Of a stretch of DNA of 64,000 nucleotides, positions 5,604 through 60,079 are shown one piece after another (position 1 is the stretch's first letter; each line of letters starts with the position of its first letter). The notes under the pieces were generated by a model that was not told where the DNA came from, did no database searches, and saw nothing but the letters and a program-made list of their open reading frames with translations. Made by a program: the position numbers and the translations under genes. Source of the DNA: Ruegeria sp. HKCCD7303 (GTDB lineage Bacteria > Pseudomonadota > Alphaproteobacteria > Rhodobacterales > Rhodobacteraceae); contig NZ_WVRE01000002.1 of the NCBI RefSeq assembly GCF_013111185.1, positions 620,001 to 684,000 on the forward strand, written 5' to 3'.

Positions 5604-7148
5604 TCAGGCGAATGCATCCGGCATGGAAGCTTTTTTCTCAGCAATATAGGCTTCCAACGCCGCAGCTGTATCCGGGTCCATCTGCGGTTGCTGGTAATTG
5701 GCCAGCAAATGTTCGACCCGCGCAGTTGCCAGCGTGCGCGTATCCCGTGCGCCCTCTTCCTGCCAGGTTTCATAAGGTTTGTAGTCCAGCAGTTCGGATT
5801 TCCAGAAGGCGTCCTTGAAGTTCGCCTGGGTGTGGGCACAGCCAAGATAGTGACCGCCTGGGCCGACTTCGCGGATCGCGTCCATGGCCTGCGCGTTGTC
5901 ATCATATGCGATACCTTTGGCCAGCGAATGCAGAACGCCCAATTGATCTGCATCCATGACGAACTTCTCGAAGTCGGCCACCAGGCCGCCTTCCAGCCAG
6001 CCGCAGGAATGCAACATGAAATTCACACCAGACAACAGGCCCATGTTAAGCGAGTTTGCTGTTTCATAAGCGGCCTGAGCGTCCGGCAGCTTCGACCCGC
6101 AGAACGAGCCCGACGACCGGTATGGCAGGTTCAGGCGACGCGCCAACTGGCCTGCACCATAGGTGATGTGGGCTGCTTCAGGCGTGCCAAAGGTGGGCGC
6201 GCCCGAGTTCATGTCGATCGACGAGACAAATGCGCCAAAGATTGCAGGTGCGCCTGGACGGACAATTTGGCTGTAAGCCACACCTGTCATAACCTCGGCC
6301 AAAACCTGCGTCAGGGTACCGGCAACCGAAACCGGAGCCATCGCACCGCCCACGATAAAGGGCGAGATGATGCACGCCTGGTTGTTGCGGGCATATACCT
6401 CAAGCGAGCCCATCATCACGTCGTCGAAGGTCATCGGTGAGTTGATGTTGGTCAGCGAAGTCATCACTGTGTTTTCCTGCACGAACTCCTTACCGAACAG
6501 GATCTCGCACATTTCGACCGAGTCCTGAGCCCGGCTGGGGTCGGTCACCGAGCCCATGAAGGGTTTGTCAGACAGCGTCATATGCGCCTTCAGCATGTCC
6601 AGGTGGCGCTTGTTCACCGGAATGTCGGTTGGTTCGCATACGGTACCGCCCGAGTGATGCAACCATTTGGACATATAGGCCAGTTTCACGAACTTGTTGA
6701 AGTCGTCCATGGTCGCATAACGACGGCCACCTTGCGCATCGCGCACAAACGGAGGTCCGTAGACCGGAGCAAGAACCATGTTGCGACCGCCGATAACCAC
6801 CGATTTCTCGGGGTTGCGGGCGTGCTGTGTGAACTGGCTTGGAGCAGTCTTGATCAACTCGCGCGCAAGGCCGCGCGGGATGCGAACACGTTCCCCATCA
6901 ACATCGGCACCGACTTCACGCCAACGTTCAATCGCAGCGGGGTTGTCGACGAAGTTAACACCGATCTCTTCCAACACGGTTTCCGCGTTGTTTTCGATGA
7001 TTTCAAGCGCCTCTTCATTAAGGACCTCGAAATTCGGAATGTTACGTTCGATGTATTTCGCGGTCTCTATTCTGACTGCGGTGCGCTCGGCTCGGCGGGC
7101 GGCGCCACCGCCACCTCTTGCCCTGCGCCGGGTGTTTGCCTCTGCCAT
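5604..7148 (-). CDS. MttB-family (trimethylamine methyltransferase-like) protein, no pyrrolysine
   Basis: A 514-residue TIM-barrel protein of the MttB family, which transfers a methyl group from a methylated amine to a corrinoid protein. The frame is continuous with no amber codon, so unlike archaeal MttB it has no pyrrolysine. It therefore belongs with the non-Pyl group that includes the glycine-betaine methyltransferase MtgB. An Arg/Gly-rich N-terminal tail (RRRARGGGGAARR) precedes the barrel. Conserved stretches include FGTPEAAHITYGAGQLARRLNLP and GPGGHYLGCAHTQ. No corrinoid protein, methyl-corrinoid:THF transferase or activase lies nearby, so partner and substrate are open. Glycine betaine, carnitine or another quaternary amine would suit a marine bacterium (inference). 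Confidence 0.87.
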   Translation of the reverse strand: MAEANTRRRARGGGGAARRAERTAVRIETAKYIERNIPNFEVLNEEALEIIENNAETVLEEIGVNFVDNPAAIERWREVGADVDGERVRIPRGLARELIKTAPSQFTQHARNPEKSVVIGGRNMVLAPVYGPPFVRDAQGGRRYATMDDFNKFVKLAYMSKWLHHSGGTVCEPTDIPVNKRHLDMLKAHMTLSDKPFMGSVTDPSRAQDSVEMCEILFGKEFVQENTVMTSLTNINSPMTFDDVMMGSLEVYARNNQACIISPFIVGGAMAPVSVAGTLTQVLAEVMTGVAYSQIVRPGAPAIFGAFVSSIDMNSGAPTFGTPEAAHITYGAGQLARRLNLPYRSSGSFCGSKLPDAQAAYETANSLNMGLLSGVNFMLHSCGWLEGGLVADFEKFVMDADQLGVLHSLAKGIAYDDNAQAMDAIREVGPGGHYLGCAHTQANFKDAFWKSELLDYKPYETWQEEGARDTRTLATARVEHLLANYQQPQMDPDTAAALEAYIAEKKASMPDAFA

Positions 7149-16086: not shown

Positions 16087-16956
16087 ATGGCCCGGTCCGA
16101 AAAAGGTTCAATCGAAAGATATTATCAAAAAGACGCTCCCAAAGCGGTGCGGGAAGAAATCAAAAAATCAGGAAAAGGGGATATTCTGAACGTCTCTTAC
16201 CCCTATCGCGAGAAAATGAAGACCAAGGACTATGACGATCAGATGGATCTTCTCCAGATCGAGCTGGTCAAGATGCAGTCCTGGGTGAAAGAAACCGACC
16301 AGCGGGTGGCGATCATCTTTGAAGGTCGTGACGCCGCCGGCAAAGGTGGCACCATCAAACGGTTCCGTGAAAACCTGAACCCGCGCGGCGCGCGCAACGT
16401 AGCACTTGCCAAACCTTCAGACGCGGAACGCAGCCAATGGTATTTTCAGCGTTATATCTCTCACTTGCCTGCTGCGGGCGAAATCGTGTTCTTTGACCGA
16501 AGCTGGTACAACCGGGGTGTCGTCGAGAATGTTTTCGGGTTTTGTACACAGGAGGAACGTGAGCGGTTTTTCCGTCAGGTTTTGCCGCTGGAAATGGGTC
16601 TGGCGAATGACGGCATTCAACTTTTCAAGTTCTGGCTCAATGTCGGGCGTGCAGAGCAGCTGAACCGCTTTTTGGCGCGTGAAACAGACCCTCTGAAACA
16701 GTGGAAGCTTAGCCCGATCGATGTGGCGGGGCTGAACAAGTGGGATGAGTATACACAGTCGATCTCGGAAACGCTGACCAGATCGCACACCGACGTATGC
16801 CCTTGGACGATTGTACGTTCAGACGACAAAAAACGCGCACGTCTCGCTGCCATTCGCACCGTGCTGCACGCGTTGGACTATGATGAGAAAGACAAAAAGA
16901 GCATCGGAAGGATTGATCCAAAGATTTGCGGTGGCCCGGATATTTGGGATGCATAA
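16087..16956 (+). CDS. ppk2: Polyphosphate kinase 2
   Basis: Cytoplasmic PPK2-family kinase of 289 residues that uses polyphosphate to phosphorylate nucleoside diphosphates (or the reverse). The Walker A-like loop [10 protein letters not shown] is at 79-88 and the Walker B/lid region [13 protein letters not shown] starts at 135 with D137. The single-domain length fits class I PPK2. ATG 16087 follows a GAGGTGA ribosome binding site. Its presence shows polyphosphate is used in this organism, which bears on the CHAD/CYTH operon at 57-60 kb, although the two loci are 40 kb apart. Confidence 0.94.
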
Positions 16957-55931: not shown

Positions 55932-57294
55932 CCTTTGGCTTTCCCTAAACAATTCCAGAACACGGCTGGTCGCGACCAGCATGTTTCTCAGCACCTTTCT
56001 GACTGCGTCGGTACTGGCCGTGGTGTACGTCACCGCAAACCGAAGCATTGAAGCCGAGACACGCTCGGTCGTCTCGGCCGAGCTGACCGGGTTGGCGGAT
56101 GAATATGAACGGCGAGGTCTGCTTGGGCTGATCACCGCAATCGAACGTCGCCTGCCAAGCGCCTCTGAACGCGACGCGCTTTACCTGTTGACCGACCGGC
56201 TTGGGGTCAAGCTGGTGGGCAACCTGAAATCCTGGCCTGTCAATGTTGCAGCAGGCAGTGGTTGGGTCGATCTGGAGCTTCGCCGCGCCGACAATGACCA
56301 GCTTGTCCCGGTCTCTGCTGCATCGATCCGCCTGCCCGGCGGAGAGCGTCTTCTGGTTGGGCGCGACGCCGCCACGCGTCAGCAGTTTGACCGCGTCTTG
56401 TTCCGATCCGTTGCACTGGCGCTGGGGATTGCCTTTGTGCTGAGCGTGATTACCGGCTGGCTGTTTACACGCCTGGTCTTTGCACGCCTCTCGGACATAG
56501 CTAGCACAGCAGAAAACATCGTATCAGGCGATCTATCCAAAAGAATGCCCCTGCGCGGAACCGGCGACGAATTCGACCAGGTCTCGGGCACTTTGAACAA
56601 CATGCTGGATCGGATCGAAGAATTGATCAGCAACCTGCGCACCACGTCGAATTCCATCGCGCATGACCTGCGGTCTCCATTGTCACGCCTGCGCCAGCGC
56701 GTTGAAGCCCTGTCAGAGCCGGGAAAAACCGATTTGGAACGAGAAATCGATGTCGCCCGCGCTACGGCAGAAATTGACCACGTGCTGCGCGTGCTGGCAC
56801 AGCTGACCGAGATTTCGCGCGCCGAAGCCGGGCTTGGGCGCGAACAGTTTGAAACCATCGACTTGCAGCACCTCGTCGGCGATGTTGTCGAACTTTACGA
56901 CCCGGTGGCTGCCGATCAGGGCATAACACTCGAGGTGACTGGCTCAGCCCCCCCAATCGAAGGGCACCGCCCTCTATTGTCACAGGCCCTGTCCAACCTG
57001 CTTGAAAACGCGATGCGATATGCGCCTGCGGAGTCGACCATCACGATTTCGCTGGATACCGAAAACGGTTTTGCATGTCTGCACGTGCGCGACCAAGGCC
57101 CGGGCGTCCCACCTGAAGAACTGGATCGCCTGCAACTGCCTTTCGTAACGCTTGACCCTGCGCGTACGGAGCGAAACGCCGGGCTGGGTCTGGCATTGGT
57201 CGCAGCGATTTCGCATATGCATGGCGGAAGGTTTGCAGCCCAAAATTGTGATCCTGGGCTGAAGGCGACGATCTATCTGGCGCAGAATCCCTAA
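55924..57294 (+). CDS. HAMP-domain sensor histidine kinase
   Basis: A 456-residue membrane kinase. Two membrane helices (about 16-37 and 160-183) flank a roughly 120-residue periplasmic sensor. A HAMP domain (about 184-235) follows. The H-box histidine is H247 (SIAHDLRSPLSRL). The catalytic domain has the N-box NLLENAMRYAP, DQGPGVP and GLGLALV. It phosphorylates the response regulator encoded just upstream. Its stop overlaps the stop of the convergent CYTH gene by four bases. Confidence 0.93.
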   Translation: MDNLWLSLNNSRTRLVATSMFLSTFLTASVLAVVYVTANRSIEAETRSVVSAELTGLADEYERRGLLGLITAIERRLPSASERDALYLLTDRLGVKLVGNLKSWPVNVAAGSGWVDLELRRADNDQLVPVSAASIRLPGGERLLVGRDAATRQQFDRVLFRSVALALGIAFVLSVITGWLFTRLVFARLSDIASTAENIVSGDLSKRMPLRGTGDEFDQVSGTLNNMLDRIEELISNLRTTSNSIAHDLRSPLSRLRQRVEALSEPGKTDLEREIDVARATAEIDHVLRVLAQLTEISRAEAGLGREQFETIDLQHLVGDVVELYDPVAADQGITLEVTGSAPPIEGHRPLLSQALSNLLENAMRYAPAESTITISLDTENGFACLHVRDQGPGVPPEELDRLQLPFVTLDPARTERNAGLGLALVAAISHMHGGRFAAQNCDPGLKATIYLAQNP

Positions 57295-57758
57295 ATCGGG
57301 ATACCGTTTGTTGCCATCGTCTTGTTCTTAAAGCGTTTGTCTTCTGTTACATCCGCCCCGAACCAATCAGGTGGTACAAAAGCTTCGGCATCATCCTCCG
57401 AGTCGAATTCGACCTCAACCAGGCGTAACGGCGCCAGATCACCGGAAAAAATATCCAGCTCGAACATGAGCCCATCCGGCAAACGCCCGGTGTAACGCTC
57501 TTTCTCGACACGGCGGCCTTCTGTTTCGGGCCAGAAGGTTTCAAACTGTTCCGCTGTGATTTGTGCCTCGCGCTCAACACGGACCAGACCACCGCCGCCT
57601 TTCAGTGTCAGGAAAAACGCATCGTCCTTCTGCCTCAACCGCAACTCAGTCGAGTCGTCAGGCGCGGTCAAGTAACCCTGTCGCACAACGGATTTCTGCG
57701 CGTTGCTCAGGTCCGGCGCGGCTGCCACCAGAAACTTGCGCTCGATTTCTTTGCTCAT
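57291..57758 (-). CDS. CYTH-domain phosphohydrolase (inorganic triphosphatase-like)
   Basis: A 155-residue protein made only of a CYTH fold. It begins with the ExExK signature (EIERKFL, residues 4-10), followed by RQGYLT, ELRLRQKDDAFFLTLKG and the acidic/basic strand residues EFDSEDDAEAF that line the triphosphate tunnel. Such enzymes hydrolyse triphosphate or thiamine triphosphate; class IV adenylate cyclases share the fold. Its ATG overlaps the stop of the ParA gene by four bases. It is third in the CHAD-ParA-CYTH operon, consistent with polyphosphate-related chemistry. Confidence 0.87.
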   Translation of the reverse strand: MSKEIERKFLVAAAPDLSNAQKSVVRQGYLTAPDDSTELRLRQKDDAFFLTLKGGGGLVRVEREAQITAEQFETFWPETEGRRVEKERYTGRLPDGLMFELDIFSGDLAPLRLVEVEFDSEDDAEAFVPPDWFGADVTEDKRFKNKTMATNGIPI

Positions 57759-58510
57759 TGGGTTGAAACCACTCCGTTTTCCAGTTCGTCGAACAGCGCC
57801 CGATAGGCCACACAGGCTGCACTGCGCCCGGCATAGGTGCTGACGGGCGCTCGATGCTGACCCATCTTTTCAATATCCGCAGCAAATGGAACCGCCGTTT
57901 GCAAAAACCGTTTAGGATATAGCTTGCGCATCGAGGCCATTGTCTCCTGATGTAAAACCTTTCGTTTCTGCACCATCGAAAAGAACGCACGCAACTTCTT
58001 CTTGCGCAGCTTGTGTTCGTCGAAAAAGCGTACCAATTGATCAAACGTTCGCTCGGACAGAGTCGTGGGGATGACGGGAACAACGATTTCATCTGCCGCC
58101 TTGAAGATGTTTTCAGACAGGGTGGAAAAGTTCGGCGGACAATCCAGAAGGACCACGTCATAATCGCTGCCGGCGGACACCAGCGCCTTTTTCAAGCGTG
58201 AGCGCTTGTTGCGCATTCGGGACAAGAAAACATCGAAATCGCGGAAGGTCAGATTTGCGGGCAACACGTCCAATCCTTCGAAATCGCTGGCCCGGATCGC
58301 TTTGGTAAACCGTTCCACGTCCTCGAAAAACCGCGCGTCCGTCAACTTTTTGGACGGCTTCACGCGAAAATAAAAACCCGACGCGCCCTGAGGGTCTAGA
58401 TCACACAGCAAAACCTGCTTGCCTGCCTGTGCATATGCATGAGCCAGGTTCACCGAGGTCGCGGTTTTGCCGACACCGCCCTTGTTGCTGTAGCAGGCAA
58501 TGATCTTCAT
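57755..58510 (-). CDS. ParA-family ATPase, orphan of ParB
   Basis: A 251-residue deviant-Walker ATPase. KGGVGKT at residues 10-16 includes the signature lysine K10 and the P-loop K15; CDLDPQGAS gives switch I and VVLLDCPPN the Walker B. No N-terminal DNA-binding domain is present, as in type Ib/chromosomal and cargo-positioning ParAs. No parB, gidA or gidB is nearby, so it is not the chromosome partition ParA. It sits between the CHAD and CYTH genes (three-base gap and four-base overlap), so its cargo or partner is probably one of these. AGGAGTGAGGA provides a strong ribosome binding site. Confidence 0.88.
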   Translation of the reverse strand: MKIIACYSNKGGVGKTATSVNLAHAYAQAGKQVLLCDLDPQGASGFYFRVKPSKKLTDARFFEDVERFTKAIRASDFEGLDVLPANLTFRDFDVFLSRMRNKRSRLKKALVSAGSDYDVVLLDCPPNFSTLSENIFKAADEIVVPVIPTTLSERTFDQLVRFFDEHKLRKKKLRAFFSMVQKRKVLHQETMASMRKLYPKRFLQTAVPFAADIEKMGQHRAPVSTYAGRSAACVAYRALFDELENGVVSTQ

Positions 58511-58513
58511 TCC

Positions 58514-60079
58514 TCACTCCTCTTTGTCGTGAAACAAACTGCGGAACAGATTTCGGGTTTCGGGGCTGTCAAAGTGTTGGAAACTGGCGATCACACGGCT
58601 GCGTTCGGATTTTTGGCGTTGATCCAGCACGGCAATCAATCCACCAACGGCCAGGCCAACCTGGGCGTCCACACGGCCCTGCGTGTTGCTTTGCTGAGAG
58701 ACAAAGGCCAGCAAAGCCTCTTGCTGGACGGAATAGTCATTAAAAAGACCCAGATTATCCTGAAGCTTTTTCAAAGGCTTGAGGATCAATTTAAATCCCT
58801 TTGCGTCAAAGAGAGGTGCAAAGAATTCCATCAGATAGCGCAGTTTCTTACAGTCGATGCGCAGGTTATGAACCGTTTCGTCCGGGGTGTCATCGGTGAT
58901 GCCGCGTGCGATTTTGCATACCTTGCGATAGCGTTTCCAGATCAGCGCGCAGGCATAGTCGTACGCGCCCCGATCCGCATTTGGCCCGGGTTGCAGTTGA
59001 CCGATGCCGTCGAACGTTTCGATCAAATGCTTCATCGAGGTGGCATAGGCTTTGCTGCGCAATCTGCGAGACAAGCGCGACAATTCTTGCCCGCGCTCTG
59101 ACTGGAACCGGTCGAACATCGCTTGCAAACCAGAATGAAGATGCTCTGGTATTAGATTGAAATACATATCTTTTTCCAAAAGATACACGTCCAGATCACG
59201 CATGCGCCCGGTCGGTGCCATAATATCTGAAAACACTCGTTTAAGCTCGACGGTTTGATCTTCGGAAAAGACGCCTTTGAACAGGCTGATCACAGACCGG
59301 ATCTTACGTAGCGAAACACGGTAATCGTGCAAAAACTCTGTATCAATGTCGGCAACCATACCGCTTTCGTTTTGCCGGGCAACCTTCAGATATGTGTGAA
59401 TAATATCTGCTGCGACTTCGATGGACGGTTCCGCTCTTCCCAATTGGATATCGGGCTTGGCGCGATAGGTCTCCATGCCAGGAAACAACCCGGCATACAG
59501 CGCTTCAACATCCTTCGCGCAGTCTGGCAGATCGGCAAAGGCTGTACTGACCTTTTGATATGTCCGTTCGTACCCGCGCAACCTCTGAAGCCGGACAAGC
59601 GTGGCCTGCCCCGAGGTTGAAGTCATTGACCAGATCACCCCTCTGACCTGGGTCTTTTGCAATTCATCCAGCACAACAAAGTTTTTTTCTTCTAACTTAC
59701 CGGCCCCAATCTGCATGAGGGCTCTGAGCTTTGGAAAATCACGCAACGCCGCCTGCACTTCACCGCTCGGCAGATCCTGAATGAACCGCCCCTTGCCTGA
59801 GCAGTTCTGGAACAATGGGCGCTGTTCCTTTTGCAGCAATTGCAACGCATCACCGATTTCGATCAGCATCCAACCCTTGGCCCGCAAAGATTGATCATGG
59901 CAATCCAGCAATGAAAAAGGTTTGGCCTCGCTGTCCTGTTCAACAACAACAGAGAACCCCGGCAAGGCGGCTTCAACAGCGGACGTGTCCATCACAGAGG
60001 GCAGAAAAAACAGGTCTTCAAACGCCCCGGGCATCCTCCTTGCGGTTGATCCACCTCTGGTCTTTTTGTGTTCTGACAC
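58514..60079 (-). CDS. CHAD-domain protein with degenerate CYTH-like N-terminal domain
   Basis: A 521-residue soluble protein. The C-terminal CHAD domain (about 220-515) has conserved basic positions H251, R254, R258 and R261 (HDYRVSLRKIR), and H404, R407, K411 and R414 (HNLRIDCKKLR), which bind polyphosphate in studied members. Residues about 35-215 resemble a CYTH domain (LLDCHDQSLRAKGWMLIEI) but lack ExExK, so this part is probably inactive. The first 27 residues are a basic, flexible tail (KK, R, RR). The start is GTG 60079 with GGAGG five bases upstream. First gene of the CHAD-ParA-CYTH operon. Confidence 0.86.
   Translation of the reverse strand: MSEHKKTRGGSTARRMPGAFEDLFFLPSVMDTSAVEAALPGFSVVVEQDSEAKPFSLLDCHDQSLRAKGWMLIEIGDALQLLQKEQRPLFQNCSGKGRFIQDLPSGEVQAALRDFPKLRALMQIGAGKLEEKNFVVLDELQKTQVRGVIWSMTSTSGQATLVRLQRLRGYERTYQKVSTAFADLPDCAKDVEALYAGLFPGMETYRAKPDIQLGRAEPSIEVAADIIHTYLKVARQNESGMVADIDTEFLHDYRVSLRKIRSVISLFKGVFSEDQTVELKRVFSDIMAPTGRMRDLDVYLLEKDMYFNLIPEHLHSGLQAMFDRFQSERGQELSRLSRRLRSKAYATSMKHLIETFDGIGQLQPGPNADRGAYDYACALIWKRYRKVCKIARGITDDTPDETVHNLRIDCKKLRYLMEFFAPLFDAKGFKLILKPLKKLQDNLGLFNDYSVQQEALLAFVSQQSNTQGRVDAQVGLAVGGLIAVLDQRQKSERSRVIASFQHFDSPETRNLFRSLFHDKEE

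Follow-up and report, generated by a model that had tools for sequence, protein, structure and literature searches.

A CHAD-ParA-CYTH operon of Ruegeria as a candidate ParA system for polyphosphate positioning, with a putative ParA-docking loop in a degenerate CYTH domain

In the 64,000-nucleotide stretch of Ruegeria sp. HKCCD7303 analysed here (hereafter the window; contig NZ_WVRE01000002.1, positions 620,001 to 684,000), three genes on the minus strand form a tight operon encoding a CHAD protein, a ParA ATPase and a CYTH triphosphatase. We read this operon, at a probability of about 60%, as a ParA-type cargo system with polyphosphate (polyP) as its cargo. The reading follows from a suggested contact between CHAD and ParA; we go from gene pair to physical contact on the strength of parallel losses of ParA and of a motif in CHAD, and from contact to positioning on that of the usual role of the ParA ATPase family. 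New here is the motif itself, [RKQ]GY, which lies in a degenerate CYTH domain of the CHAD protein and is tied to ParA linkage. The CHAD gene is located at 58514-60079 (521 aa, GTG start; Pfam PF05235, E-value 4.5e-55), the ParA gene at 57755-58510 (251 aa; AAA_31, 7.8e-39) and the CYTH/TTM gene, an ortholog of NeuTTM (NE1496), at 57291-57758 (155 aa; PF01928, 1.1e-7). CHAD and ParA are separated by 3 bases and ParA and CYTH overlap by 4, so that the coordinates and the Pfam matches bear out the composition and spacing given in a preliminary description of this DNA.

The CHAD-ParA order is conserved beyond chance. In a survey of 100 genomes of the family, the window's own included, a CHAD of this kind (>370 bits) was found in 13; an intact ParA adjoins it in 12 and a remnant in the 13th, while CYTH is present in 9 of the 13. 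At E ≤ 1e-40 this ParA was detected in the same 12 genomes and in none of the remaining 87. Scanning of named genomes gave 544 confirmed matches, the best 80 of which were taken as loci. ParA lies directly behind CHAD in 75 of these, at a gap of -4 to +10 bases (median 2), CYTH lies downstream in 65 and all three genes occur in 62; the ParA gene is cut by a contig end in L115 and absent in L067, L069, L072 and L097. Where CYTH is missing (15 of the 80), ParA is kept or begun in 13. The preliminary description had made conservation of the three-gene order a check of its reading; the CHAD-ParA part is upheld by the 75 named loci, whereas CYTH proved less constant (65/80 vs. 75/80 for ParA). Nearest among the named relatives are sets of Ruegeria, but the set spans Alpha-, Beta- and Gammaproteobacteria (Paracoccus, Falsochrobactrum, Alcaligenaceae, Nitrosomonas, Colwellia and some metagenome-assembled genomes). 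On a midpoint-rooted tree Falsochrobactrum, Alcaligenaceae, Nitrosomonas and Colwellia are scattered among the Rhodobacterales, which suggests that the gene set has been transferred between lineages. The CHAD gene is also found on six Paracoccus plasmid records, with the complete set on the one viewed, and the pair is still kept where ParA identity falls to 39-58% (L254-L261). In Paracoccus denitrificans DSM 413 all three genes are found in the same order at locus L117.

The CHAD protein consists of a disordered N-terminal tail (residues 1-17), a degenerate CYTH domain (approximately 17-203) and the CHAD domain proper (approximately 205-521), modelled by AlphaFold2 with a mean predicted local distance difference test (pLDDT) score of 93. 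The degenerate domain (59471-60031, minus strand), which the preliminary description overlooked, has a TTM-like fold (Z score of 9.9 to 2gfg, with several TTMs at about 9), yet no ExExK catalytic motif is present in residues 1-205. Between its strand 158-165 and helix 171-182 lies R168-G169-Y170 (59570-59578, minus strand), the candidate ParA contact. It was first noticed because the ParA-less orthologs L067, L069 and L072 all deviate at R168 and Y170. After removal of duplicates (identical last 150 residues), [RKQ]GY was found in all 91 ParA-linked CHADs (85 RGY, 5 KGY and 1 QGY; 70 from named loci), located 79-88 residues before the first HxxR even in distant members at 184-318 bits. Under a position rule of 72-95 residues before HxxR, set around the 83 of the window's CHAD, none of 34 other CHADs has the motif in place, although two of these (L127, L041) have fewer than 150 residues in front, where it could hardly be detected. 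A stricter pattern with a hydrophobic residue before [RK]GY recovers 88 of the 91 and, with the position rule removed, 3 of the 34. The possibility that the motif is a general feature of CYTH-CHAD proteins was rejected, as the RGY of 13 of the 34 other CHADs (SKxxRGYxL type) stands at 58-63 residues before HxxR; in one further protein a QGY stands at 113. The two RGY motifs could conceivably share an origin. In a distant relative encoded on a Thiodictyon plasmid, where no adjacent ParA is listed, RGH stands at distance 87.

Parallel loss within the genus provides the main support for a contact. Of 54 genomes of the genus surveyed, 42 have this CHAD. ParA is intact in 36 of them, and all 36 keep the motif (one as QGY); ParA is cleanly lost in five (L228, identical to L067; L230; L231, identical to L072; L232, identical to L069; and L233), and none of the five has the motif. 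The remaining genome, that of L023, carries a decaying ParA remnant (6150-6560) between intact CHAD and CYTH genes. Two of the losses, L230 and L233, were held out, being found after the motif; L230 has KGN in place of KGY. In 85 ParA-linked CHADs, 127 columns reach at least 90% conservation; 168 and 170 are the only ones of these altered in every one of the five losses. A quick tree from which the motif columns were excluded implies seven losses of ParA, of which supported branches require six, and five of the motif. With losses distributed by branch length, all five motif losses would hit ParA-less tips with a probability of 5e-6, a figure calculated after the 127 columns had been scanned; for the two held-out losses by themselves it is 0.008. 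In the ParA-less genomes no copy of this ParA was found elsewhere: aside from the remnant of L023, there are only other ParAs at 109 bits or less. Taken together, the motif and the parallel losses suggest that the [RKQ]GY loop of the degenerate CYTH domain contacts ParA, and they lend support to the earlier proposal of CHAD as the likely ParA partner. Because it is lost while CHAD stays, ParA is, judged from the sequences, accessory and not essential: CHAD outlives it with the polyP ligands kept and the candidate docking motif lost.

The CHAD domain (residues 205-521; 58517-59467, minus strand) closely matches that of Chlorobium tepidum CtCHAD (6qva, 6qv7), with a Z score of 35.5, 34% identity and a root-mean-square deviation (rmsd) of 1.8 to 6qv7. 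The central polyP ligands of CtCHAD, H253, R256, R260, R296 and R418/Y419, were probed by mutation according to the consulted part of a report on it (PMC6537752). In a register taken from sequence and structural alignments, covering the outer basic patches of CtCHAD only in part, the ligands H253, R256, R260, R296, R418 and Y419 correspond to H251, R254, R258, R294, R414 and Y415 of the window's protein. These six central ligands are invariant across 47 sequences. Their conservation argues that the CHAD domain would bind polyP, as the preliminary description had supposed in assigning it to the polyP-binding type. Middling structural matches of the CHAD part to helical bundles and receptors were dismissed as common arrangements. 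The expressed CtCHAD construct comprises residues 208-522 only, and the omitted part of the C. tepidum protein (UniProt Q8KE09) is about as long as the degenerate CYTH domain described here; it may carry the motif.

The ParA has the deviant Walker A motif SNKGGVGKT (residues 8-16; 58463-58489, minus strand) with the signature lysine K10 of ParA/MinD ATPases, and both K10 and K15 are invariant in 36 sequences. Its model has a mean pLDDT of 80, weaker stretches included. The top structural match is Helicobacter pylori Soj (6iub; Z score 26.1, rmsd 2.2, 221 aligned residues), with lower scores for BcsQ (23.4) and FleN (23.1), and by sequence it resembles BcsQ under the curated cut-off. As to the wider family, 68 of 398 genomes of the phylum encode a member at E ≤ 1e-40, and 57 of the 68 also have a CHAD, vs. 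145 of the other 330 (Fisher 7e-10, ignoring kinship). This wider family occupies 69 places; among the 29 listed loci besides the window, CHAD adjoins ParA within 1.5 kb flanks in six (L165-L168, L173 and L177). Orphan ParAs of other Pseudomonadota (L169-L193) have CHAD in such flanks only at L173 and L177. Nine stretches from orphan-ParA genomes were checked for the motif in unlinked CHADs; one of them (G648) proved to be the ParA place and another (G798) yielded no CHAD, and the motif is in place in 0 of the remaining 7 and in 0 of 9 controls from genomes without this ParA. The claim is therefore not extended to orphan ParAs.

The third gene is a NeuTTM ortholog (profile E-value 1.7e-67 to 2fbl). 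In the register of the 2fbl alignment, E4, E6 and K8 of ExExK, together with Y29 and K53, are invariant in 9 sequences. NeuTTM of Nitrosomonas europaea is reported as a specific tripolyphosphatase with a Tyr28/Lys52 dyad (PMC3440374, consulted in part). It has been described as an enzyme, and in a Nitrosomonas relative (L116) the NeuTTM-type gene sits behind CHAD-ParA. A Nudix hydrolase gene is located downstream of CYTH in some loci outside Ruegeria (e.g., L078:10664-11107) and is likely a fourth member of the set. On a Paracoccus marcusii plasmid two CYTH genes and a Nudix gene follow CHAD and the ATPase (L253:5296-6777), in the order CHAD, ATPase, CYTH, NUDIX, CYTH, and SixA-like genes are close to the operon in a few relatives.

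ParA family ATPases form ATP-bound dimers on the nucleoid. For the operon we propose that the CHAD domain would hold polyP, while the degenerate CYTH domain would serve as an adaptor touching ParA through the [RKQ]GY loop, as the phylogeny suggests. CHAD-coated granules or condensates would stimulate ParA, causing its local release, and the granules would thereby be spread or anchored over the nucleoid and divided between daughter cells. The CYTH enzyme would clear tripolyphosphate, a short end product, with a contribution of the Nudix hydrolase in some relatives. The fuller proposal, that of a self-contained and horizontally spread polyP-positioning ParA system, docked through the [RK]GY loop of a former triphosphatase domain and operating in cells with PPK2 only, stands in our estimate at even odds.

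Several results weigh against positioning of polyP by this ParA. On about seven occasions the ATPase disappeared and CHAD was retained. The motif was kept in L097, where ParA is absent, and in L023, where it is decaying, the latter being the only one of four ParA-less orthologs (L023, L067, L069, L072) to keep it; L097, in which CYTH comes directly next, is a contig-end CHAD, as is L115, cut inside ParA, which keeps the motif too. A sign test on independent pairs was not significant (p 0.5, then 0.125), the losses being too few to reach 0.05. CHADs without ParA also evolve faster (tips 0.36-0.59 vs. a median of 0.19), so part of the motif change could be general relaxation. The N-terminal tail of CHAD is basic and resembles ParA-activating peptides, yet its conservation stops at close relatives, and its identification as a ParB-like activator was dropped. 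No convincing Pho box was found upstream of CHAD, the best match averaging 9.5/14 in 79 loci and reaching 8 in the window (baseline means: 8.8 for shuffled sequence, 8.9 within genes). Finally, the genome has no match to polyphosphate kinase 1 (PPK1; PF02503).

Without a PPK1 match, polyP would have to come from PPK2, with four matches in the genome. One of these lies in the window at 16087-16956 on the plus strand, as the preliminary description had pointed out while overlooking the missing PPK1. In the family survey PPK1 is missing in 6 of the 13 CHAD-bearing genomes vs. 7 of the other 87 (Fisher 0.0015, ignoring kinship), and PPK2 matches average 3.0 vs. 1.8, an excess that does not reach significance when only PPK1-bearing genomes are compared (p 0.13). 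A review, consulted in part, states that PPK2 alone suffices for granules in strains of Pseudomonas aeruginosa and Ralstonia eutropha (PMC8776046), and so granules in cells with PPK2 only appear possible, the window organism included. Near the operon, a single PPK1 and a single PPK2 protein served as queries against 107 loci. In L095 a PPK2 gene precedes the CHAD match by about 350 bases, PPK1 lies about 2.5 kb past the Nudix gene on the opposite strand in L109 and L111, and the remaining loci gave no match to either.

BcsQ- and FleN-type relatives of ParA are regulators of complexes, and the ParA of the operon might likewise bind CHAD without positioning anything, acting as an ATP-driven switch or assembly factor for a polyP enzyme complex of CHAD, CYTH and Nudix. 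The presence of CYTH in the operon, and of Nudix in some relatives, would fit such a complex, as would the likeness of the ParA to BcsQ and FleN in fold and to BcsQ in sequence. We nevertheless regard it as unlikely, considering that the fold is nearest to Soj and that ParA persists in 13 of the 15 loci without CYTH. Polyphosphate might instead be a signal whose level CHAD reports to ParA, which under starvation would then influence chromosome segregation or division. The polyP binding reported for CHAD domains (PMC6537752, in part) agrees with this, but it is improbable given that the ParA was found solely beside its CHAD in the 100 family genomes, that no ParB or division gene lies in the scanned stretch and that the genome encodes a separate, Soj-like ParA match (109 bits).

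That the genes merely travel together, for example on plasmids, and have no joint function is a still less probable explanation; the Paracoccus plasmids and the scattered distant genera speak for it, and the maintenance of the pair over deep divergence and the loss of the motif after that of ParA speak against it. A cyclase role for the CYTH part, with the set as a cyclic AMP (cAMP) signalling unit tied to polyP, draws on a proposal for Acidithiobacillus, whose CYTH-CHAD is accompanied by ppk and parA (PMC6416229, consulted in part). We give it very little credence, since the CYTH gene is the ortholog of a specific triphosphatase with the Tyr/Lys dyad conserved and ExExK is missing from the degenerate CYTH domain of the CHAD protein.

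Placement and inheritance of bacterial polyP granules are an open question. AlgP-dependent spacing of granules over the nucleoid is reported for P. aeruginosa (PMC9239181; review PMC13052382); AlgP is histone-H1-like and itself DNA-binding, and the excerpts of these sources name no ATPase, whereas the system proposed here is built on a ParA ATPase. The 2025 review treats polyP granules as an emerging model and, in the portion available, mentions AlgP as well as a connection with chromosome segregation, but no ParA (PMC13052382). The McdAB system for carboxysomes likewise pairs a ParA-type ATPase with a cargo-bound partner; its adaptor is McdB, while here a CHAD protein that binds polyP would take that role, and McdA of Synechococcus elongatus is described as having no signature lysine (PMC6328274, in part), which the ParA of the window keeps. 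ParABS partition also uses a Soj-type ParA but includes parB, and ParB is reported to contact ParA by an N-terminal peptide (PMC12462528, in part), unlike the internal loop that is the candidate contact in CHAD. Closest in composition is the genus-conserved folD-ppk1-parA-CHAD cluster of Acidithiobacillus, with parA beside the CYTH-CHAD gene (PMC10892726, PMC6416229); the sections consulted discuss it for copper or cAMP and assign it no positioning role. The preliminary description knew of no such system; parA beside ppk and CHAD is already in print, though not as a positioning system in the sections consulted, and among open-licence papers none was found proposing a ParA for polyP through CHAD. 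If true, it would give the ParA family a new cargo with a residue-level docking prediction, account for this ParA accompanying CHAD in many bacteria and provide a likely context for NeuTTM, and the idea of a dedicated motor for polyP stores can now be tested down to a single point mutant.

In a Pfam scan, a TfoX_C gene and ndk border the operon at one end, and a two-component pair borders it at the other. Among these neighbours, CHAD and CYTH included, there is no parB, in keeping with the orphan ParA of the preliminary description, and there are no McdB or carboxysome genes; the scanned stretch holds no division gene, and a promoter search at CHAD gave nothing exceeding chance. A class-level search matched 92 of 385 genomes; among the 30 listed loci ParA is present in four (the window's own, L124, L125 and L126), and the other 26 CHAD loci, mostly partial matches to the model, have no ParA within 1.5 kb. 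For the beginning of the CHAD gene (window 60020-60079), a good Shine-Dalgarno sequence precedes the GTG, and the alignment of the closest relative (L043) begins at residue 1. Distant orthologs, with author-chosen start codons, have no counterpart of residues 1-15, and an in-frame ATG at residue 16 is the alternative, which leaves the GTG assignment slightly open.

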